IMG/VR virus record: IMGVR_UViG_3300042691_003232
Location: 1-22,754 of that record
Length of the DNA stretch: 22,754 nt
From: a virus
Reading direction: 5' to 3' (one strand)
Shown here: in pieces, positions 1-6,767 of the stretch
How the letters are laid out: each line of letters begins with the position of its first letter
Position numbering within the stretch: position 1 is the first letter of the stretch
The notes under the pieces: model-generated
What the model was told of the DNA's origin: nothing
Seen by the model: the letters and a program-made list of their open reading frames with translations, nothing else
The model's database searches: none
Program-made: the position numbers and the translations under genes

Positions 1-515
1 GAAGTATGGTCTTGCGTACAAACGGTTTAACTTTGCACGGAGCTTTAACTAAAGGTGAGTTTGTAAAGCAGTTAAACACGTTAAAGAAAATGCCAAGCAA
101 AGCAACTCTAGTTGCAGGCTCTATTGACATACGGCACCATGTAGGCCGTCAGCCAGACTCAGGTAAAGCCATAGAAAGCTTGTGCGAACGTTACTGTGAA
201 GTAATTGAGTTCATAAAAAATGAATTTGAAATAGCTATAGAAATAGCAGCACCTGTTCCTGTCGAGTATGAGGCGCGTAGGCTGCCACAGACCGGTTACT
301 ACAAAGACAAACCTTTTTGCGGTTCAATAGAATCCAGGCGAGACTGGACTAGCTACTTTATAGACCTCATGTCTTGTGAAAACAAAGTGGTTAGACCTCC
401 TGAAGAATGGTACTCTATGGACGGTGAAGAGTACGCCAAGAAATACATGGAGCTAAGTTCATCTGTTCACATTGCACCTATCAACTATCGTCGTTTTAAC
501 TGGGGCAACTCATGA
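1..515 (+). CDS. SGNH/GDSL hydrolase-like protein, 5' end cut by window edge
   Basis: The frame is open to the left edge. The first ATG is at 6, but the protein then begins in the middle of the fold, so the true start, with the block I GDS-type serine motif, is probably outside the window. From the ATG at 6 there are 169 residues. GSIDIRHH (residues 38-45) resembles the block III GEIDCR-type motif of phage and glycan-locus SGNH proteins. SSVHIAPINYR (residues 152-162) resembles the C-terminal block V with the catalytic His. Family members are esterases or O-acyltransferases. The stop overlaps the start of the PLP enzyme gene by 4 bases (ATGA), so the two are very likely co-translated. I infer a role in base or nucleotide modification from context only; the substrate is unknown. 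Family assignment is by motif memory, without a profile search. Confidence 0.6.
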   Translation, partial: SMVLRTNGLTLHGALTKGEFVKQLNTLKKMPSKATLVAGSIDIRHHVGRQPDSGKAIESLCERYCEVIEFIKNEFEIAIEIAAPVPVEYEARRLPQTGYYKDKPFCGSIESRRDWTSYFIDLMSCENKVVRPPEEWYSMDGEEYAKKYMELSSSVHIAPINYRRFNWGNS

Positions 516-1438
516 GTCTTTTTACTATTACTGAAGACAAGTCTAACAAAGACATTCCTCAAGGTATGACTGCCTTAGAAGCACGTAGTCACTATCATGC
601 AATGAGCGATGGCTTTGTGTCTAAGCTATCAAAGCCTGTGGTTCAAACCCACGGAGATAGATACGTTTTTAGAGGCGATGCTAGTCAGTCAAGTTTAAAA
701 GGCTATGGTGCAGAGCAGCTAGTTGCAGAATGCAAAGAAGATGTTTTGGTTTATTGTGCACCTCGAGTAGGTATGGCCATGGATGCAATTGCAACCTTAG
801 CTCAGATGTATGGCAAAAAGTGTGTGTTCTTTTGTCCTGCCTCTGGTGCACCTTCTAAACATCAGAAAGCATTGCTAGCTTATGGCGCAGACTTGCGGTT
901 CATAAAGATTGCAGCAATGCCTACACTTAACAGCTATGCTAAGAAATGGGCAGAGCAGAATGGCGCAAAGTACTTGCCTTTTGGTTTGGCAAAAACTCCA
1001 TTGGTAACAGCAGGAATTGTCAAACTAGGAGCTCAAATTGCAGAGCAGCTTGATGAAGAGCCTACTGAGATTTGGATGTCGGTCTCTACAGGCACAGCCA
1101 TTAGAGCTTTGCAGATTGCATGGCCAGAAGCTTTGTGTAAGGGCATGGTTGTTGCTAGGAACATGCACGATGGTGAGATAGGCCATGCTAACCTTTGGTC
1201 TGCATCACAGCCATTCTTAAAAGATGTGCCATTAAGTAAACGCCCGCCCTTTCCATCTACGGCAAACTATGATGCCAAGTGCTGGGAAGACTTTGATAAT
1301 TTTGCTGCAAAAGGTTCAATCTTCATCAATGTAGGAACAGATGATAAGGTAGACAAGTTCTATGACCAAGTCAAAGACATACCTTTAGATAGTCAAAGAG
1401 CATGGCATGACATGCGTGACCTGGAGCGTGGACTATGA
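512..1438 (+). CDS. Fold-type-II PLP-dependent enzyme, likely for thymine hypermodification
   Basis: 308 residues. The layout is that of threonine synthase/tryptophan synthase beta type PLP enzymes. VFRGDASQSSLKGYG (52-66) places Lys63 as the probable Schiff-base lysine. YCAPRVGMAMDAIATLA (81-97) corresponds to the substrate/cofactor loop and helix that follow in this fold. VSTGT (191-195) is a glycine/serine-rich phosphate-binding loop. PLP enzymes of this kind act in phage thymidine hypermodification, converting an amino acid already joined to 5-methylene-dU (for example by decarboxylation or rearrangement). The gene overlaps both neighbours by 4 bases (ATGA), one being the putative amino acid:DNA transferase, which supports a shared pathway. 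The PLP fold is fairly secure. The reaction and substrate are inferred from the neighbour. A metabolic enzyme such as a threonine-synthase-like protein is the alternative. Confidence 0.72.
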   Translation: MSLFTITEDKSNKDIPQGMTALEARSHYHAMSDGFVSKLSKPVVQTHGDRYVFRGDASQSSLKGYGAEQLVAECKEDVLVYCAPRVGMAMDAIATLAQMYGKKCVFFCPASGAPSKHQKALLAYGADLRFIKIAAMPTLNSYAKKWAEQNGAKYLPFGLAKTPLVTAGIVKLGAQIAEQLDEEPTEIWMSVSTGTAIRALQIAWPEALCKGMVVARNMHDGEIGHANLWSASQPFLKDVPLSKRPPFPSTANYDAKCWEDFDNFAAKGSIFINVGTDDKVDKFYDQVKDIPLDSQRAWHDMRDLERGL

Positions 1439-2568
1439 GAATCGAAACAACTGCTTACTACGATGAAATGGTTCGCTATGCTGCAATGGCTAAGACGCAG
1501 CAAGCAGAATGCAACCTAGGAACTATACCGCACTTAAAAGGGTCTGTTAGAGATGATTTGATGATGCACGTTGAGTTGTATGACGTTGCTAACCGTAAGT
1601 ATGCAGGCTTTACACAAATTGTTTTAGATCTTTTCTACAACACGACGCCTGATCACCCTTATGCGCACAAGCTGCATGATGTGCGCAAACCTATTTGCAA
1701 GTCGTTTGAAGGTGTTGAAGCATCATGGGGTTTGGCTGAGTGGCTTTATGTGTTTATAGTTCATCGGGTTACAGGCAGCGGCATTAACTACGCTAAAAAA
1801 CCTAGTGGCTACAACAACACAATTTTGCCAAAGTTTTGGTCATGTGACACGATTGAGCAAATGGCTCAAGTTATTGTCAGCAGAGAGTCAACAATTTACA
1901 CATCTGTTGGTTACCAGTTTCCTGCATTTCCAAAGCCCACTAGTGACTACAAGCTTGGCGGTGATTATTTCTTATGCTGCTACGCACCTAAGCTAGCTAG
2001 GGATCTTGCAGAATGGCTTGAATCAAAAGGCAAACGTGATTTGCGTGACATTGGCGAGTGGATGTTTGCTTGGAACAAGCAGCAAGGACTGCGTGCATAT
2101 AAATTCCAGTACGCTGCAGTCGTTAGTGACATAGCAGACTTCTTCTCACAATACGTCAATAAAAATAGCCCGTTCTTTTATGGCAGCAATGCAGTCGAGT
2201 GCTTAAAGTACGCAGCCAACCCTTTGAGTAAAGGCAATGAGCAAGATTTTCTAGATGAAGTCACAATGAAGTTTTGCAAAGACATTGGCTCTACTGCGTA
2301 TGACGGTGAGGATATTTTCTGTGATGGAATCCGTTGGATAGAAAACTATGTCAGGCCTGGCTATGACTACGACCATCTTGACCGTGACAAAATCTGGAAC
2401 AGCAGCACAATCATTGACCATCCATATGGTCGTCAAAAAGCAATGCTTGAACACGGCTTGATTGAGTCATTTAACTCTTTAACTGTCCATCCTTCTGATG
2501 ACCATGTGCTTAAGTTAGCAGGCATGAGCAAAGGTGAATACCTACTAAAAGTTCATGGGCTTGATTAA
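1435..2568 (+). CDS. Putative amino acid:DNA transferase (aGPT-Pplase/ADDT-like)
   Basis: 377 residues, predicted mostly helical. Features that recall the alpha-glutamyl/putrescinyl thymine pyrophosphorylase family, now called amino acid:DNA transferases, are LYVFIVHRVTGSGINY (104-119), the KPSGYNNT stretch (122-129), TSVGYQFPAFPKP (156-168) and FQYAAVVSDIADFF (224-237). In characterised phages these enzymes replace the pyrophosphate on 5-hydroxymethyl-dU in DNA with an amino acid, giving 5-aminoacyl-methyl-dU. The kinase that makes the pyrophosphorylated base is not in this window and would have to lie to the left. The gene starts inside the PLP enzyme gene (ATGA overlap) and is followed by the promoter-like repeat and dCMP deaminase. 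I recognise the family from memory, so a profile search against ADDT/aGPT-Pplase models is decisive. It could otherwise be an uncharacterised relative of the 5-hmdU kinase helical domain. Confidence 0.62.
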   Translation: MRIETTAYYDEMVRYAAMAKTQQAECNLGTIPHLKGSVRDDLMMHVELYDVANRKYAGFTQIVLDLFYNTTPDHPYAHKLHDVRKPICKSFEGVEASWGLAEWLYVFIVHRVTGSGINYAKKPSGYNNTILPKFWSCDTIEQMAQVIVSRESTIYTSVGYQFPAFPKPTSDYKLGGDYFLCCYAPKLARDLAEWLESKGKRDLRDIGEWMFAWNKQQGLRAYKFQYAAVVSDIADFFSQYVNKNSPFFYGSNAVECLKYAANPLSKGNEQDFLDEVTMKFCKDIGSTAYDGEDIFCDGIRWIENYVRPGYDYDHLDRDKIWNSSTIIDHPYGRQKAMLEHGLIESFNSLTVHPSDDHVLKLAGMSKGEYLLKVHGLD

Positions 2569-2588: not shown

Positions 2589-3017
2589 ATGATAAGACCA
2601 ACACTAGATCAAACTTATATGGACATTGCACGTGCATTTGCTAAGCGTGCAACTTGTTCACGCAGACAAGTCGGTGCTGTAATAACCGGCAATGGTTACA
2701 TCTTATCTTCAGGATACAACGGTTCTTTTCCTGGTTCTCAGCATTGCATTGACGAGCCTTGCCCTGGCGCAACACTGCCTAGCGGGACAGGCCTTGACTT
2801 GTGTAAGTCTGCCCATGCTGAACAAAATGCAATTGCCAGATTAAAAGAAGTTGATACAGCAGACACGCTTTACTGCACAACAGCTCCATGCATTAGCTGC
2901 ACAAAGTTAGTGTTGTGCACAGGCATTAAAAGGATTGTTGCAGACCAAGACTACGTGTCTAGTGGCAAAGATTTATGGCTAAGCAGCGGGCGTGTTTGGA
3001 GCAACTATGTCGAGTAG
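2589..3017 (+). CDS. dCMP deaminase (zinc-dependent)
   Basis: 142 residues, normal length for phage deoxycytidylate deaminases. It converts dCMP to dUMP, the substrate for thymidylate synthase or for a dUMP hydroxymethylase. The zinc site is complete: His76-Ala-Glu78 (SAHAEQNAI) and PCISC with Cys101 and Cys104. The N-terminal helix with RRQVGAVI and the SSGYNG loop (40-45) fit the family. An extra His/Cys cluster (QHC, EPC, residues 51-58) may bind a second, structural zinc, as in T4-type enzymes. No Shine-Dalgarno is visible before the ATG; the 14-base promoter-like repeat lies directly upstream, so the message may be leaderless. The end overlaps the polymerase start region by 11 bases. Together with the three genes to its left it fits a dUMP/hmdUMP-based modified DNA synthesis pathway (inference). 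Confidence 0.92.
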   Translation: MIRPTLDQTYMDIARAFAKRATCSRRQVGAVITGNGYILSSGYNGSFPGSQHCIDEPCPGATLPSGTGLDLCKSAHAEQNAIARLKEVDTADTLYCTTAPCISCTKLVLCTGIKRIVADQDYVSSGKDLWLSSGRVWSNYVE

Positions 3018-4791
3018 AACAAAAGCAGTGCTTGACATTGAGTGCTACACAAACTACTTTTTGATTGCCATTAAGTCTATGGCCAATGACAAGGTTGTGA
3101 CCTTTGAGCGTTCTGATTGGTCAGACTTTGATGCAGAGCAGCTTAACAGCGTGTTGCGCAAATACACAATCATCACTTTTAATGGCAATAGATATGACTT
3201 GCTGCTTTTAAAAGGCTCCATTGCAGGCTTTGATGCTTCAAAGTTAAAGGTCATGTCAGATGACATCATTGTCAATAACGTCAGAGCTTGGGACACAGAG
3301 TCTAAGTACAACCTGCCTCAATGCAAATACATAGACCACATTGACTTGATTGATGTTGCACCTGGCAAAGCCAGTCTAAAAATCTATGGTGGCCGTTTAC
3401 ATAGTAAGCGTATGCAAGACTTGCCAATTGAACCTAGTGCAATCATCAAGCTAGATGAACGTGAGCTCTTGACTAGCTATTGCATTAATGATCTTGACAC
3501 AACTATTGACTTGTTTAATAAGCTAAGCAGCCAGATTGATTTGCGTGAAAAGATGGGCGAAGAGTTAGGCATGGATTTACGTTCAAAGTCAGATGCTCAG
3601 ATTGCAGAGGCTGTGATTAAGAAGCAGATTGAGGCAATTAAAGGAACCAAGATTTATAGGCCTGACTTGCCTAATGGTTTTTCATTTAACTATGTGCCTC
3701 CTAAGTTCATTAAGTTTAAGCACCCTGAGTTGGTCAATGCTCTTGAAGTCTTTAAGAGTGAGGCTTTTACACTTAATGAAAAAGGCGATGCTGCTGAACC
3801 TGAAAAAGTAGGCAAGCTTAAAGTCAAGATTAACCAGACGGTTTATCAGTTAGGCATTGGCGGCATTCATTCTTGTGAGAAAACAGTCAACTACATTGCA
3901 GGCAATGACTACATCCTAGTTGACCGTGATGTGACTAGCTATTACCCTAACATCATTCTTAACCAAAGGCTTTATCCTAAGCATATTGGCATTGAGTTCT
4001 TGACTGCATATAAGTCAATCGTTGAGAAGAGAGTCCATGCTAAAAGGGCAGGTGACAAAGTCACTGATGCTTCTTTGAAGATTGTCATCAATTCAAGCTT
4101 TGGTAAGTTTGGCAACAAATGGTCAGCTCTGTACAGCCCTGATTTGTTGATCCAAACCACGGTTACAGGGCAATTGGCCTTGTTGATGCTGATAGAGGCT
4201 CTTGAAGGCTCTGGCATACAGGTTGTGAGTGCTAATACTGATGGCATAGTGATCTATTGCCACAAGCGCAACCAAGCGGCCTTATTTTCCATAATTGCAG
4301 CCTGGGAAGAGACAACTGGCTTTAATACCGAAGAAACGGCTTACACCGCTCTGTACTCTAGGGACATTAACAATTACGTTGCTTTTAAGCCTTCAGGCTC
4401 TTATAAAGCAAAAGGTGCATATGCTGATGCTGAGTTGTCTAAAACACCGACTGCTCAGGTTTGTGTGCAAGCCGTGGTTGATCATCTTCAGCTAGACATA
4501 CCTATTGAAACAACTATTAGGTCATGCCAAGATACCAGGATGTTTGTGTCGGTCAGGTCTGTGACAGGCGGTGCAGTTAAAGGTGATACTTACTTAGGCA
4601 AAGCTGTACGTTGGTACTATGCACTTGGAGAGACAGGTTCAATCAACTATAAAAAGAATGGGAATAAAGTTGCCATGACTGATGGTGCCAAGCCTTTGAT
4701 GCTGCTGCCAGCCAAGCCGCCTAAAGACATTGACCGTCAATGGTATATCACAAAAGCTTATGCCATTTTGGCAGATTTAGGCATTAAGTAA
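3007..4791 (+). CDS. DNA polymerase, family B type, with 3'-5' exonuclease domain
   Basis: 594 residues from the ATG at 3007, chosen over an in-frame GTG at 2992 because GGAG (2998-3001) lies five bases before it. Exonuclease motifs: LDIECY with Asp10 and Glu12 (Exo I), TFNGNRYD (57-64, Exo II) and YCINDLDTT (Y158/D162, Exo III). Polymerase motif A is DVTSYYPNII (Asp308), motif B is KIVINSSFGKFG (Lys358, Asn362), and motif C is SANTDGIVIY (Asp412). Motif C reads NTDG in place of the usual DTDS, so the first Asp is Asn. The protein is short for a family B enzyme, so it is a compact phage type. No TPR2-type insertion of protein-primed polymerases is obvious, but I cannot exclude one. It is presumably the replicative polymerase. 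It shares 11 bases with the deaminase gene, so the two are translated from one message. Confidence 0.88.
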   Translation: MSSRTKAVLDIECYTNYFLIAIKSMANDKVVTFERSDWSDFDAEQLNSVLRKYTIITFNGNRYDLLLLKGSIAGFDASKLKVMSDDIIVNNVRAWDTESKYNLPQCKYIDHIDLIDVAPGKASLKIYGGRLHSKRMQDLPIEPSAIIKLDERELLTSYCINDLDTTIDLFNKLSSQIDLREKMGEELGMDLRSKSDAQIAEAVIKKQIEAIKGTKIYRPDLPNGFSFNYVPPKFIKFKHPELVNALEVFKSEAFTLNEKGDAAEPEKVGKLKVKINQTVYQLGIGGIHSCEKTVNYIAGNDYILVDRDVTSYYPNIILNQRLYPKHIGIEFLTAYKSIVEKRVHAKRAGDKVTDASLKIVINSSFGKFGNKWSALYSPDLLIQTTVTGQLALLMLIEALEGSGIQVVSANTDGIVIYCHKRNQAALFSIIAAWEETTGFNTEETAYTALYSRDINNYVAFKPSGSYKAKGAYADAELSKTPTAQVCVQAVVDHLQLDIPIETTIRSCQDTRMFVSVRSVTGGAVKGDTYLGKAVRWYYALGETGSINYKKNGNKVAMTDGAKPLMLLPAKPPKDIDRQWYITKAYAILADLGIK

Positions 4792-6110: not shown

Positions 6111-6138
6111 AGAAGCGTTCAACGAGAAAAACACATGA
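6103..6138 (+). CDS. 11-codon minigene, possible leader peptide
   Basis: ATG 6103 lies five bases after a strong GGAGG (6093-6097) and encodes MTEEAFNEKNT, with its TGA (6136-6138) overlapping the ATG (6135) of the 210-residue gene. The larger gene has only a weak GAGAA upstream, so re-initiation from this mini-ORF may drive its translation. It overlaps the end of the membrane-protein gene by eight bases. It may not be a functional peptide; the case rests on the ribosome site and the ATGA junction. Confidence 0.35.
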   Translation: MTEEAFNEKNT

Positions 6139-6767
6139 GTTACATAATTGCATCTTTGCCGCCTACTAAGTGTTTTGTTCGACGCGAATTTTTGTACAAC
6201 GACCACAAAGGCCATGGTGAATTAGAGCCTGCCATTTGGGTAAGTCTTAAAGCTTTGCGTGGTCAAGTTTTCCGCATTGAGTCGTTACTGCCAGCGTACG
6301 GCGCGCTATATGACAAGCTGCCTATCCATGCTTATGTGTGGAAAGAAGACCATGGTGATTTGCCAATTGATACCTTGCAGCTTTGGGACTGCATGGGCTA
6401 CAAGTTTACTATTCTTGAAAAAATTGGTCTACGCAACCTTGGCGTGAAGTTCTTAGGCAAAGACAAGCAGTGGCATTTTGGTCGCTACTTGTTTACTGTC
6501 GACTTCTGCGCTGATGGAATGGACCTAGATACAGGCTTTACAGAGCAGGCAGAAGAACACAAATCTTTTAACTGGATCATGTTAGACAATGGCCAGTTTG
6601 CTTGTCAACCAAACAACCGATGCTTGTGGTACGACCAGTCTTTGATTCCTTCAGAGACAAAATTCCCTGACTTTCAAGCTGCTCAAAGACTATGGACAGT
6701 AGATGGAACGCGTAAGTGGTCAGCAGGTGATGACTGGTTTTACGACATCAATGAGAAGAAGGATTAA
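6135..6767 (+). CDS. Conserved-looking phage protein, unknown function
   Basis: 210 residues. A soluble, aromatic-rich, mixed alpha/beta sequence with no signal peptide or membrane segment. Notable stretches are EPAIWVSLKALRGQVFRIES (31-50), YVWKEDHGDLPIDTLQLWDC, and several Trp and His residues towards the C-terminus (KQWHFGRYLFTVDFCADG; NNRCLWYDQS). The codon pattern matches its neighbours. I do not recognise a family and find no catalytic motif. Start chosen at the ATG overlapping the minigene stop; there is no other in-frame ATG close by. It is followed two bases later by the last gene of the block. Confidence 0.75.
   Translation: MSYIIASLPPTKCFVRREFLYNDHKGHGELEPAIWVSLKALRGQVFRIESLLPAYGALYDKLPIHAYVWKEDHGDLPIDTLQLWDCMGYKFTILEKIGLRNLGVKFLGKDKQWHFGRYLFTVDFCADGMDLDTGFTEQAEEHKSFNWIMLDNGQFACQPNNRCLWYDQSLIPSETKFPDFQAAQRLWTVDGTRKWSAGDDWFYDINEKKD

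Follow-up and report, generated by a model that had tools for sequence, protein, structure and literature searches.

A conserved phage gene cassette that probably hypermodifies 5-hydroxymethylcytosine

What are three overlapping genes at the cut end of a virus contig for? The window that we analysed is a 22,754-base virus contig whose left end falls inside a gene. An original prediction read the genes at this end as a cassette that replaces part of the phage thymine with an amino-acid-derived base, possibly of a new type. The layout is as it had described: the plus-strand frames at 3-515 (open at the left edge), 512-1438 and 1435-2568 are locked together, with an ATGA common to each neighbouring pair. 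Our analysis of the genes and their relatives points to a related but different answer, namely that the operon probably makes an amino-acid-derived hypermodification of 5-hydroxymethylcytosine (5hmC).

Layout and conservation of the cassette

The features of this end of the window are as follows.

3 to 515, + strand: SGNH-fold protein, the C-terminal 170 aa of a protein of ~320 aa (phrog_13881, 3e-34; phrog_17781, 7e-12); 5′ end cut by the edge
Within 3 to 515, + strand: landmarks of the SGNH-fold protein, GSIDIRHH (GSID from 117) and the conserved SVH histidine (468-470)
512 to 1438, + strand: fold-type II PLP-dependent enzyme, 308 aa (Pfam PF00291, 2.9e-10, 40.4 bits; phrog_7093, 1.6e-47)
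698 to 700, + strand: putative Schiff-base lysine K63 of the PLP enzyme, assigned by its invariance
1435 to 2568, + strand: 377-aa helical protein (c0), candidate amino acid:DNA transferase or other enzyme acting on DNA bases (AlphaFold and Foldseek)
1762 to 1782 and 1909 to 1938, + strand: c0 motifs HRVTGSG (residues 110-116) and GYQFPAFPKP (residues 159-168)
2589 to 3017, + strand: dCMP deaminase, a nucleotide-pool gene directly downstream of c0 (Pfam PF00383, 3.1e-21; phrog_174, 7e-38)
2992 to 4791, + strand: family-B-type phage DNA polymerase, context outside the modification step (phrog_1252, 5e-196)

The polymerase is 45-49% identical to those of Alteromonas phage R7M, Acinetobacter phage Loki and similar phage records. 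The 170 aa of the first gene correspond to residues 151-320 of a 320-aa protein in a near relative, L015. Because the window copy begins at residue 151, the ATG at position 6 falls within the gene, and the block with the GDSH nucleophile sits beyond the contig end.

A scan of IMG/VR with the c0 family listed 599 candidate stretches. At least 577 of them encode a c0 relative, so the three-gene stretch is a conserved block and not a chance arrangement; the cassette recurs hundreds of times in phage contigs from the environment. ORF clustering of 89 loci gave the recurrent partners: besides c0 itself (89), these were SGNH (64), PLP (61), c3, a second protein without an assigned family (56), and a thymidylate-synthase (TS)-fold protein (43). 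Among the 33 loci whose flanks reach 4 kb or more on each side, SGNH lies within 5 kb of c0 in 26, PLP in 24 and the TS-fold gene in 19, and a dCMP deaminase is found near the cassette in 12. The TS-fold gene, which is of the T4 gp42 type as described below, shares a 4-base overlap with SGNH in 8/9 junctions, and PLP does so with c0 in 8/11. DUF1599 ("nucleotide modification associated domain 1") is a frequent neighbour.

The cassette also has variants. Some contigs of up to 101 kb, most of them fragments, carry SGNH, PLP and c0, and no TS-fold or C5-methyltransferase gene was found in them. Another branch, in which c0 and c3 accompany an HhH glycosylase-like protein, lacks nearby SGNH, PLP and gp42 genes; a 174-kb example of this branch gave no thymidylate-synthase family match. 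Because of these, c0 is not strictly tied to gp42. A C5-methyltransferase was considered as the hydroxymethyl source in gp42-less cassettes, and none was found. Outside IMG/VR, c0 has no match among 50,697 phage records and no DNA match in plasmids; the GTDB collection holds it on five MAG contigs, with one of these matches spanning just 30 residues.

The hydroxymethylase gene and the target base

The gene to the left of SGNH bears on which base is modified. In 9/9 close relatives whose sequence extends far enough leftwards (L002-L007, L015, L017 and L018), a TS-fold gene stands immediately left of SGNH, and the L015 copy is ~50% identical to T4-group gp42. When a member of this family was compared with the PDB, T4 dCMP hydroxymethylase (1b49) matched with an E value of 4e-93, whereas thymidylate synthases reached only ~4e-9. 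Position 177 of E. coli ThyA decides the preference for dUMP or dCMP. At this position all 41 neighbouring hydroxymethylases have Asp, together with Thr at 147, and the same pair is found in the gp42 of the T4 group and of Aeromonas phages. In the dUMP hydroxymethylases of the thymine-hypermodifying phages M6 and phiW-14 both positions are Asn, and the Asn177 signature of thymidine hypermodification appears in 0/41 of the neighbouring enzymes. By sequence class and by the Asp at its base-recognition site, the gene left of SGNH in the relatives is a T4 gp42-type dCMP hydroxymethylase. Positions 177 and 147 were also the top separators of modified-cytosine phage contigs from others in a metagenomic screen, where MazG-type and dCMP-deaminase domains were the co-occurring partners (PMC8670742); both domains adjoin our cassette.

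With a gp42-type enzyme carrying D177/T147 beside SGNH in the relatives, the likely substrate is therefore 5hmC. Positions 1-2568 most likely cover the right-hand three of the four genes in a widespread operon that reads dCMP hydroxymethylase, SGNH, PLP enzyme and c0, the first of which is predicted from the relatives to lie off the left edge. On these sequence signatures we consider it likely that cytosine, rather than thymine, is the modified base. The prediction of a hypermodification cassette, possibly of a new type, is very probably right, but its thymine target is not supported by hydroxymethylases that are of dCMP type in 41/41 cases.

The cassette enzymes and the appended group

Full-length relatives of the SGNH protein conserve GDSH, G[NS]ID and the SVH histidine; of the usual DxxH, the Asp is not evident in the family. 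An AlphaFold model of a full-length homologue from L002 (pLDDT 91.5) has SGNH esterases as its best PDB fold matches (prob 1.00, E 4.5e-5). Conserved motifs and fold place the protein in the SGNH hydrolase/acyltransferase superfamily, in agreement with the SGNH-like first gene of the original prediction.

The company that this family keeps elsewhere is informative. In 19 Aeromonas phages SGNH is fused to a C-terminal domain that matches the 5-hmdU DNA kinase helical domain (HMUDK_hel, PF18723; E 8.5e-4). A second, SGNH-centred scan gave 46 loci without c0, of which 37 have a stand-alone HMUDK_hel-like domain and 44 a myo-inositol-1-phosphate-synthase-like protein. One sampled member of the stand-alone domain matched HMUDK_hel at 2.7e-15, and the family alignment aligns to the M6 helical domain with an E value of 2.6e-5, better than 50/50 shuffles. 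From the Aeromonas fusions and these stand-alone neighbours, SGNH is therefore a recurrent partner of an HMUDK_hel-type helical domain.

The second gene exceeds the cut-off of the Pfam PALP profile (40.4 bits against 35), and 20 diverse copies all keep K63, the putative PLP lysine. With this profile match and Schiff-base lysine it is a fold-type II PLP enzyme, as had been proposed. Its C-terminal signature, FPx4YDxKxW, is present in 56/59 members of the family and in the PLP enzyme of phage M6, and is absent from that of ViI. When whole proteins are compared, however, the family profile gives the M6 enzyme 17.0 bits and metabolic cysteine synthases 18.3, so the kinship with M6 is not the stronger one. 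Erythrobacter and Microcystis phages have closer relatives, either joined in one protein with an N4/N6-type DNA methylase or encoded next to one.

These partners bear on the nature of the appended group. 5hmC might carry a group other than an amino acid, such as an acyl, a sugar or a cyclitol. SGNH would then be either the principal transferase or an esterase that trims, and PLP and c0 would supply or place the donor. The SGNH family does occur with inositol-phosphate-synthase-like, HAD-like and HMUDK_hel genes, in some cases next to gp42: in L200, L209, L230 and L239 the SGNH/helical/inositol-type genes come after gp42 and dCMP deaminase. In Aeromonas phage 25, SGNH lies near a UDP-galactopyranose mutase gene. 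Against this, a PLP gene regularly accompanies our cassette (24/33 wide-flank loci), and the usual substrates of PLP enzymes are amino acids or amines. We regard a non-amino-acid group as unlikely, and on balance we favour an amino-acid origin.

The third protein, c0, is the least familiar of the three. H110, R111, G114, S115, G159-P163 and F165-K167 do not vary among 30 diverse homologues, so both motifs singled out by the original prediction, HRVTGSG and GYQFPAFPKP, are present and conserved; the likeness to amino acid:DNA transferases (ADDT, PF18724) that they were said to carry is not seen in the ADDT sequences of M6 or phiW-14. No match at a meaningful score was found for c0 in Pfam, PHROGs or NCBIfam. 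The ADDT profile matched neither the window protein nor any of 13 whole records, and 0/30 diverse c0 members matched ADDT or HMUDK_hel in Pfam at E values up to 10, while the ADDT positive controls were recovered at 1.4e-46 (M6) and 1.1e-10 (phiW-14). HHalign of c0 against M6-seeded ADDT and HMUDK_hel alignments, with column-shuffle controls, gave no link. These searches do not support membership of c0 in either family by profile, and fold comparison alone points there. The partner c3 was also considered as a candidate ADDT and gave no profile match.

The AlphaFold model of c0 is a confident one (pLDDT 87.8, pTM 0.88). In a Foldseek search of viral models, the first match after its own family was an ADDT-domain protein (prob 1.00, E 1.7e-3, TM 0.37-0.42), and the SP10 5-hmdU DNA kinase (prob 0.93) and the phiW-14 HMUDK helical protein (0.94) also appeared, with TM of 0.28-0.48 and E of ~0.2. 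A search of the PDB with the model returned nothing significant. The closest viral-model entry, at 54% identity, is named "Amino acid:DNA transferase domain-containing protein" in UniProt, but the match behind this name could not be reproduced. The modelled kinship of c0 to ADDT and to 5-hmdU-kinase helical proteins thus appears remote, at the level of fold. Because there is no profile match and the fold likeness is remote, ADDT is a plausible function for c0 and not a demonstrated membership; we treat c0 as a candidate amino acid:DNA transferase, a predicted function. The GYQFPAFPKP loop, invariant in sequence, has little order in the model (below 50 at residues 157-161), a pattern compatible with a mobile loop in the active site.

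The same fold likeness could be read in favour of thymine hypermodification of the M6, ViI and SP10 kind, in which 5-hmdU would receive an amino acid and the PLP enzyme would rework it. A PALP-family gene does follow the ADDT gene directly in M6 and occurs elsewhere in the ViI genome. This pathway would, however, call for a dUMP hydroxymethylase and a 5-hmdU kinase, both of which had been expected upstream. The relatives instead have the dCMP-type enzyme, with a D177/T147 pair unlike M6 and phiW-14, and HMUDK_hel was found in 0/14 cassette-carrying records, mostly fragments, as was ADDT in 0/13. The HMUDK_hel search recovered its controls in M6, phiW-14 and ViI and, weakly, in 44RR; in M6 this helical domain comes after the N-terminal part of the kinase protein. 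We therefore consider a thymine target improbable. An auxiliary metabolic operon, in which the three genes act on small molecules of amino-acid or acyl metabolism, is more improbable still: SGNH hydrolases and PALP enzymes are common in metabolism and are carried by phages, but here the gene order places them with a dCMP hydroxymethylase and genes of the nucleotide pool, the SGNH family occurs fused with the kinase helical domain or next to it, and PLP relatives are fused to or found beside DNA methylases.

A proposed pathway and its place among known systems

We return, then, to DNA hypermodification, which is very probably the role of the cassette, and to 5hmC as its substrate. In M6, ViI and SP10 thymidine hypermodification, a P-loop kinase gives the activation, and PLP enzymes are held to rework the side chain. 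From the gene content we infer an analogous route. The gp42-type enzyme would make 5-hydroxymethyl-dCMP, an upstream MazG-like nucleotidase would help to remove unmodified dNTPs, and the polymerase would incorporate 5hmC into DNA. After replication, c0 would recognise the modified base and attach an amino acid, or a group resembling one, to the hydroxymethyl carbon. The SGNH protein might supply the activation done elsewhere by the kinase, for example by O-acylation of the hydroxymethyl group; this part as a kinase substitute we propose tentatively. The PLP enzyme would then rework the side chain, as in the thymidine pathways.

The cassette resembles the M6 pathway in combining a TS-fold hydroxymethylase, a helical and presumably DNA-acting protein and a fold-II PLP enzyme with FPx4YDxKxW, which in M6 occur together or in the same genome. 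It differs from the pathway of M6, ViI, SP10 and phiW-14 in that the relatives' hydroxymethylase is of dCMP and not dUMP type, there is an additional SGNH protein, the 14 records searched gave no 5-hmdU kinase helical domain, and the helical protein has no ADDT or HMUDK_hel profile match. With the 5hmC system of T4 (gp42, gp56 dCTPase and glucosyltransferases) it shares a gp42-type enzyme of ~50% identity in the relatives, with a MazG-like nucleotidase and a dCMP deaminase nearby; SGNH, PLP and c0, however, stand in place of the T-even glucosyltransferases, and the cassette is not a glucosylation module. Like the 5hmC carbamoyltransferase systems found by MetaGPA (PMC8670742), it would derivatise 5hmC after synthesis and has TS-fold, MazG-type and dCMP-deaminase partners, but the transferring enzymes are different and we identified no carbamoyltransferase cluster around it. 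Gene 42 is present in Aeromonas phages 44RR, 31 and 25 and glucosyltransferases are not, and whether their hmC carries another decoration was open in 2010 (PMC2993671). ORF233c of Aeromonas phage 44RR2.8t, an SGNH and HMUDK_hel-like fusion, has an SGNH domain homologous to that of the cassette (HHalign probability 100, E 3e-66), but 44RR has no PALP match and, as in the rest of the phage collection, none to c0.

A wider possibility, which we put forward as speculation and with some doubt, is that these loci represent a widespread and undescribed class of phage base: a kinase-free 5hmC with an amino-acid side chain, activated in the manner of an SGNH acyltransferase and built with interchangeable donor modules, PLP and an amino acid here and inositol-phosphate synthase elsewhere. 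To our knowledge, amino-acid-derived hypermodification has been described for thymine only, and the cytosine decorations described in the literature that we surveyed are sugars, carbamoyl groups and carboxymethyl amides. If our reading is true, an amino-acid-decorated cytosine would be a modified DNA base of a new kind, and a 5hmC route through SGNH, PLP and a protein of ADDT-like fold would widen viral DNA chemistry. It would add new enzymes that write on 5hmC and give phages a further route around restriction and CRISPR. SGNH-based activation of 5hmC would also explain hmC decoration in Aeromonas T4-like phages such as 44RR, and the old question of that decoration in 44RR, 31 and 25 would become testable in culturable phages.

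Genes near the cassette

In the window, a gene at 6135-6767, with the polymerase region on one side and the minus-strand genes on the other, belongs to a phage protein family annotated as ferredoxin (phrog_3704, 3e-73); it is possibly an auxiliary gene. In the near relatives of the window, the gene ahead of that for gp42, the T4-type dCMP hydroxymethylase (L015:6741-7475 for this preceding gene), encodes a fusion protein that combines a MazG-type pyrophosphohydrolase with the N-terminal domain of a dATP/dGTP diphosphohydrolase (PF18909, 1e-27).

Relatives of c0 and of the PLP enzyme

The gene for c0, the 377-aa helical protein, is often immediately preceded by one for a 141-aa protein (L049:9589-10014 and similar), with weak, below-cut-off similarity to the uracil-DNA-glycosylase superfamily (PF03167, E 0.0018). 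Another c0 branch (L089:9128-12644, L072, L057, L065, and others) has no SGNH, PLP enzyme, or gp42 gene near c0. It contains the following:

an HhH-GPD glycosylase-like protein
c0 and an uncharacterized protein of ~165-186 aa
c3, an uncharacterized protein of ~335 aa

The 174-kb L089 record gave no match to the thymidylate synthase family or to C5-methyltransferases.

Close relatives of the window PLP enzyme occur in Erythrobacter phage R6L gp1 (L094:7771-10203), as a fused part of a protein that also carries an N4/N6 DNA methylase domain, and in Microcystis phage Mae-JY30 (L095:7396-9714), immediately following a methylase gene and a ParB-annotated gene. Possibly, these arrangements represent a different DNA modification that draws on the same PLP family.

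SGNH proteins in other settings

ORF233c of Aeromonas phage 44RR2.8t (L093:9001-11388), an hmC phage without glucosyltransferases, encodes 795 aa, with SGNH fused to an HMUDK_hel-like domain (the helical domain of 5-hmdU DNA kinases). Its neighbor is a sodium:solute symporter gene (PF00474; L093:7408-8931). This locus is a candidate source of hmC decoration in such phages.

A second SGNH-centered cassette was found at L200:3218-9020, L209, L230, L239, and about 40 more SGNH loci (L167-L238), with these products:

a myo-inositol-1-phosphate-synthase-like protein (PF01658, 2e-24)
a HAD-like protein
an FkbM-type methyltransferase, often present
a protein matching HMUDK_hel (PF18723, 2.7e-15)

At some of these loci, gp42 (with the cytosine-type Asp177) and dCMP deaminase immediately precede it. 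This cassette suggests an inositol-type modification of 5hmC.
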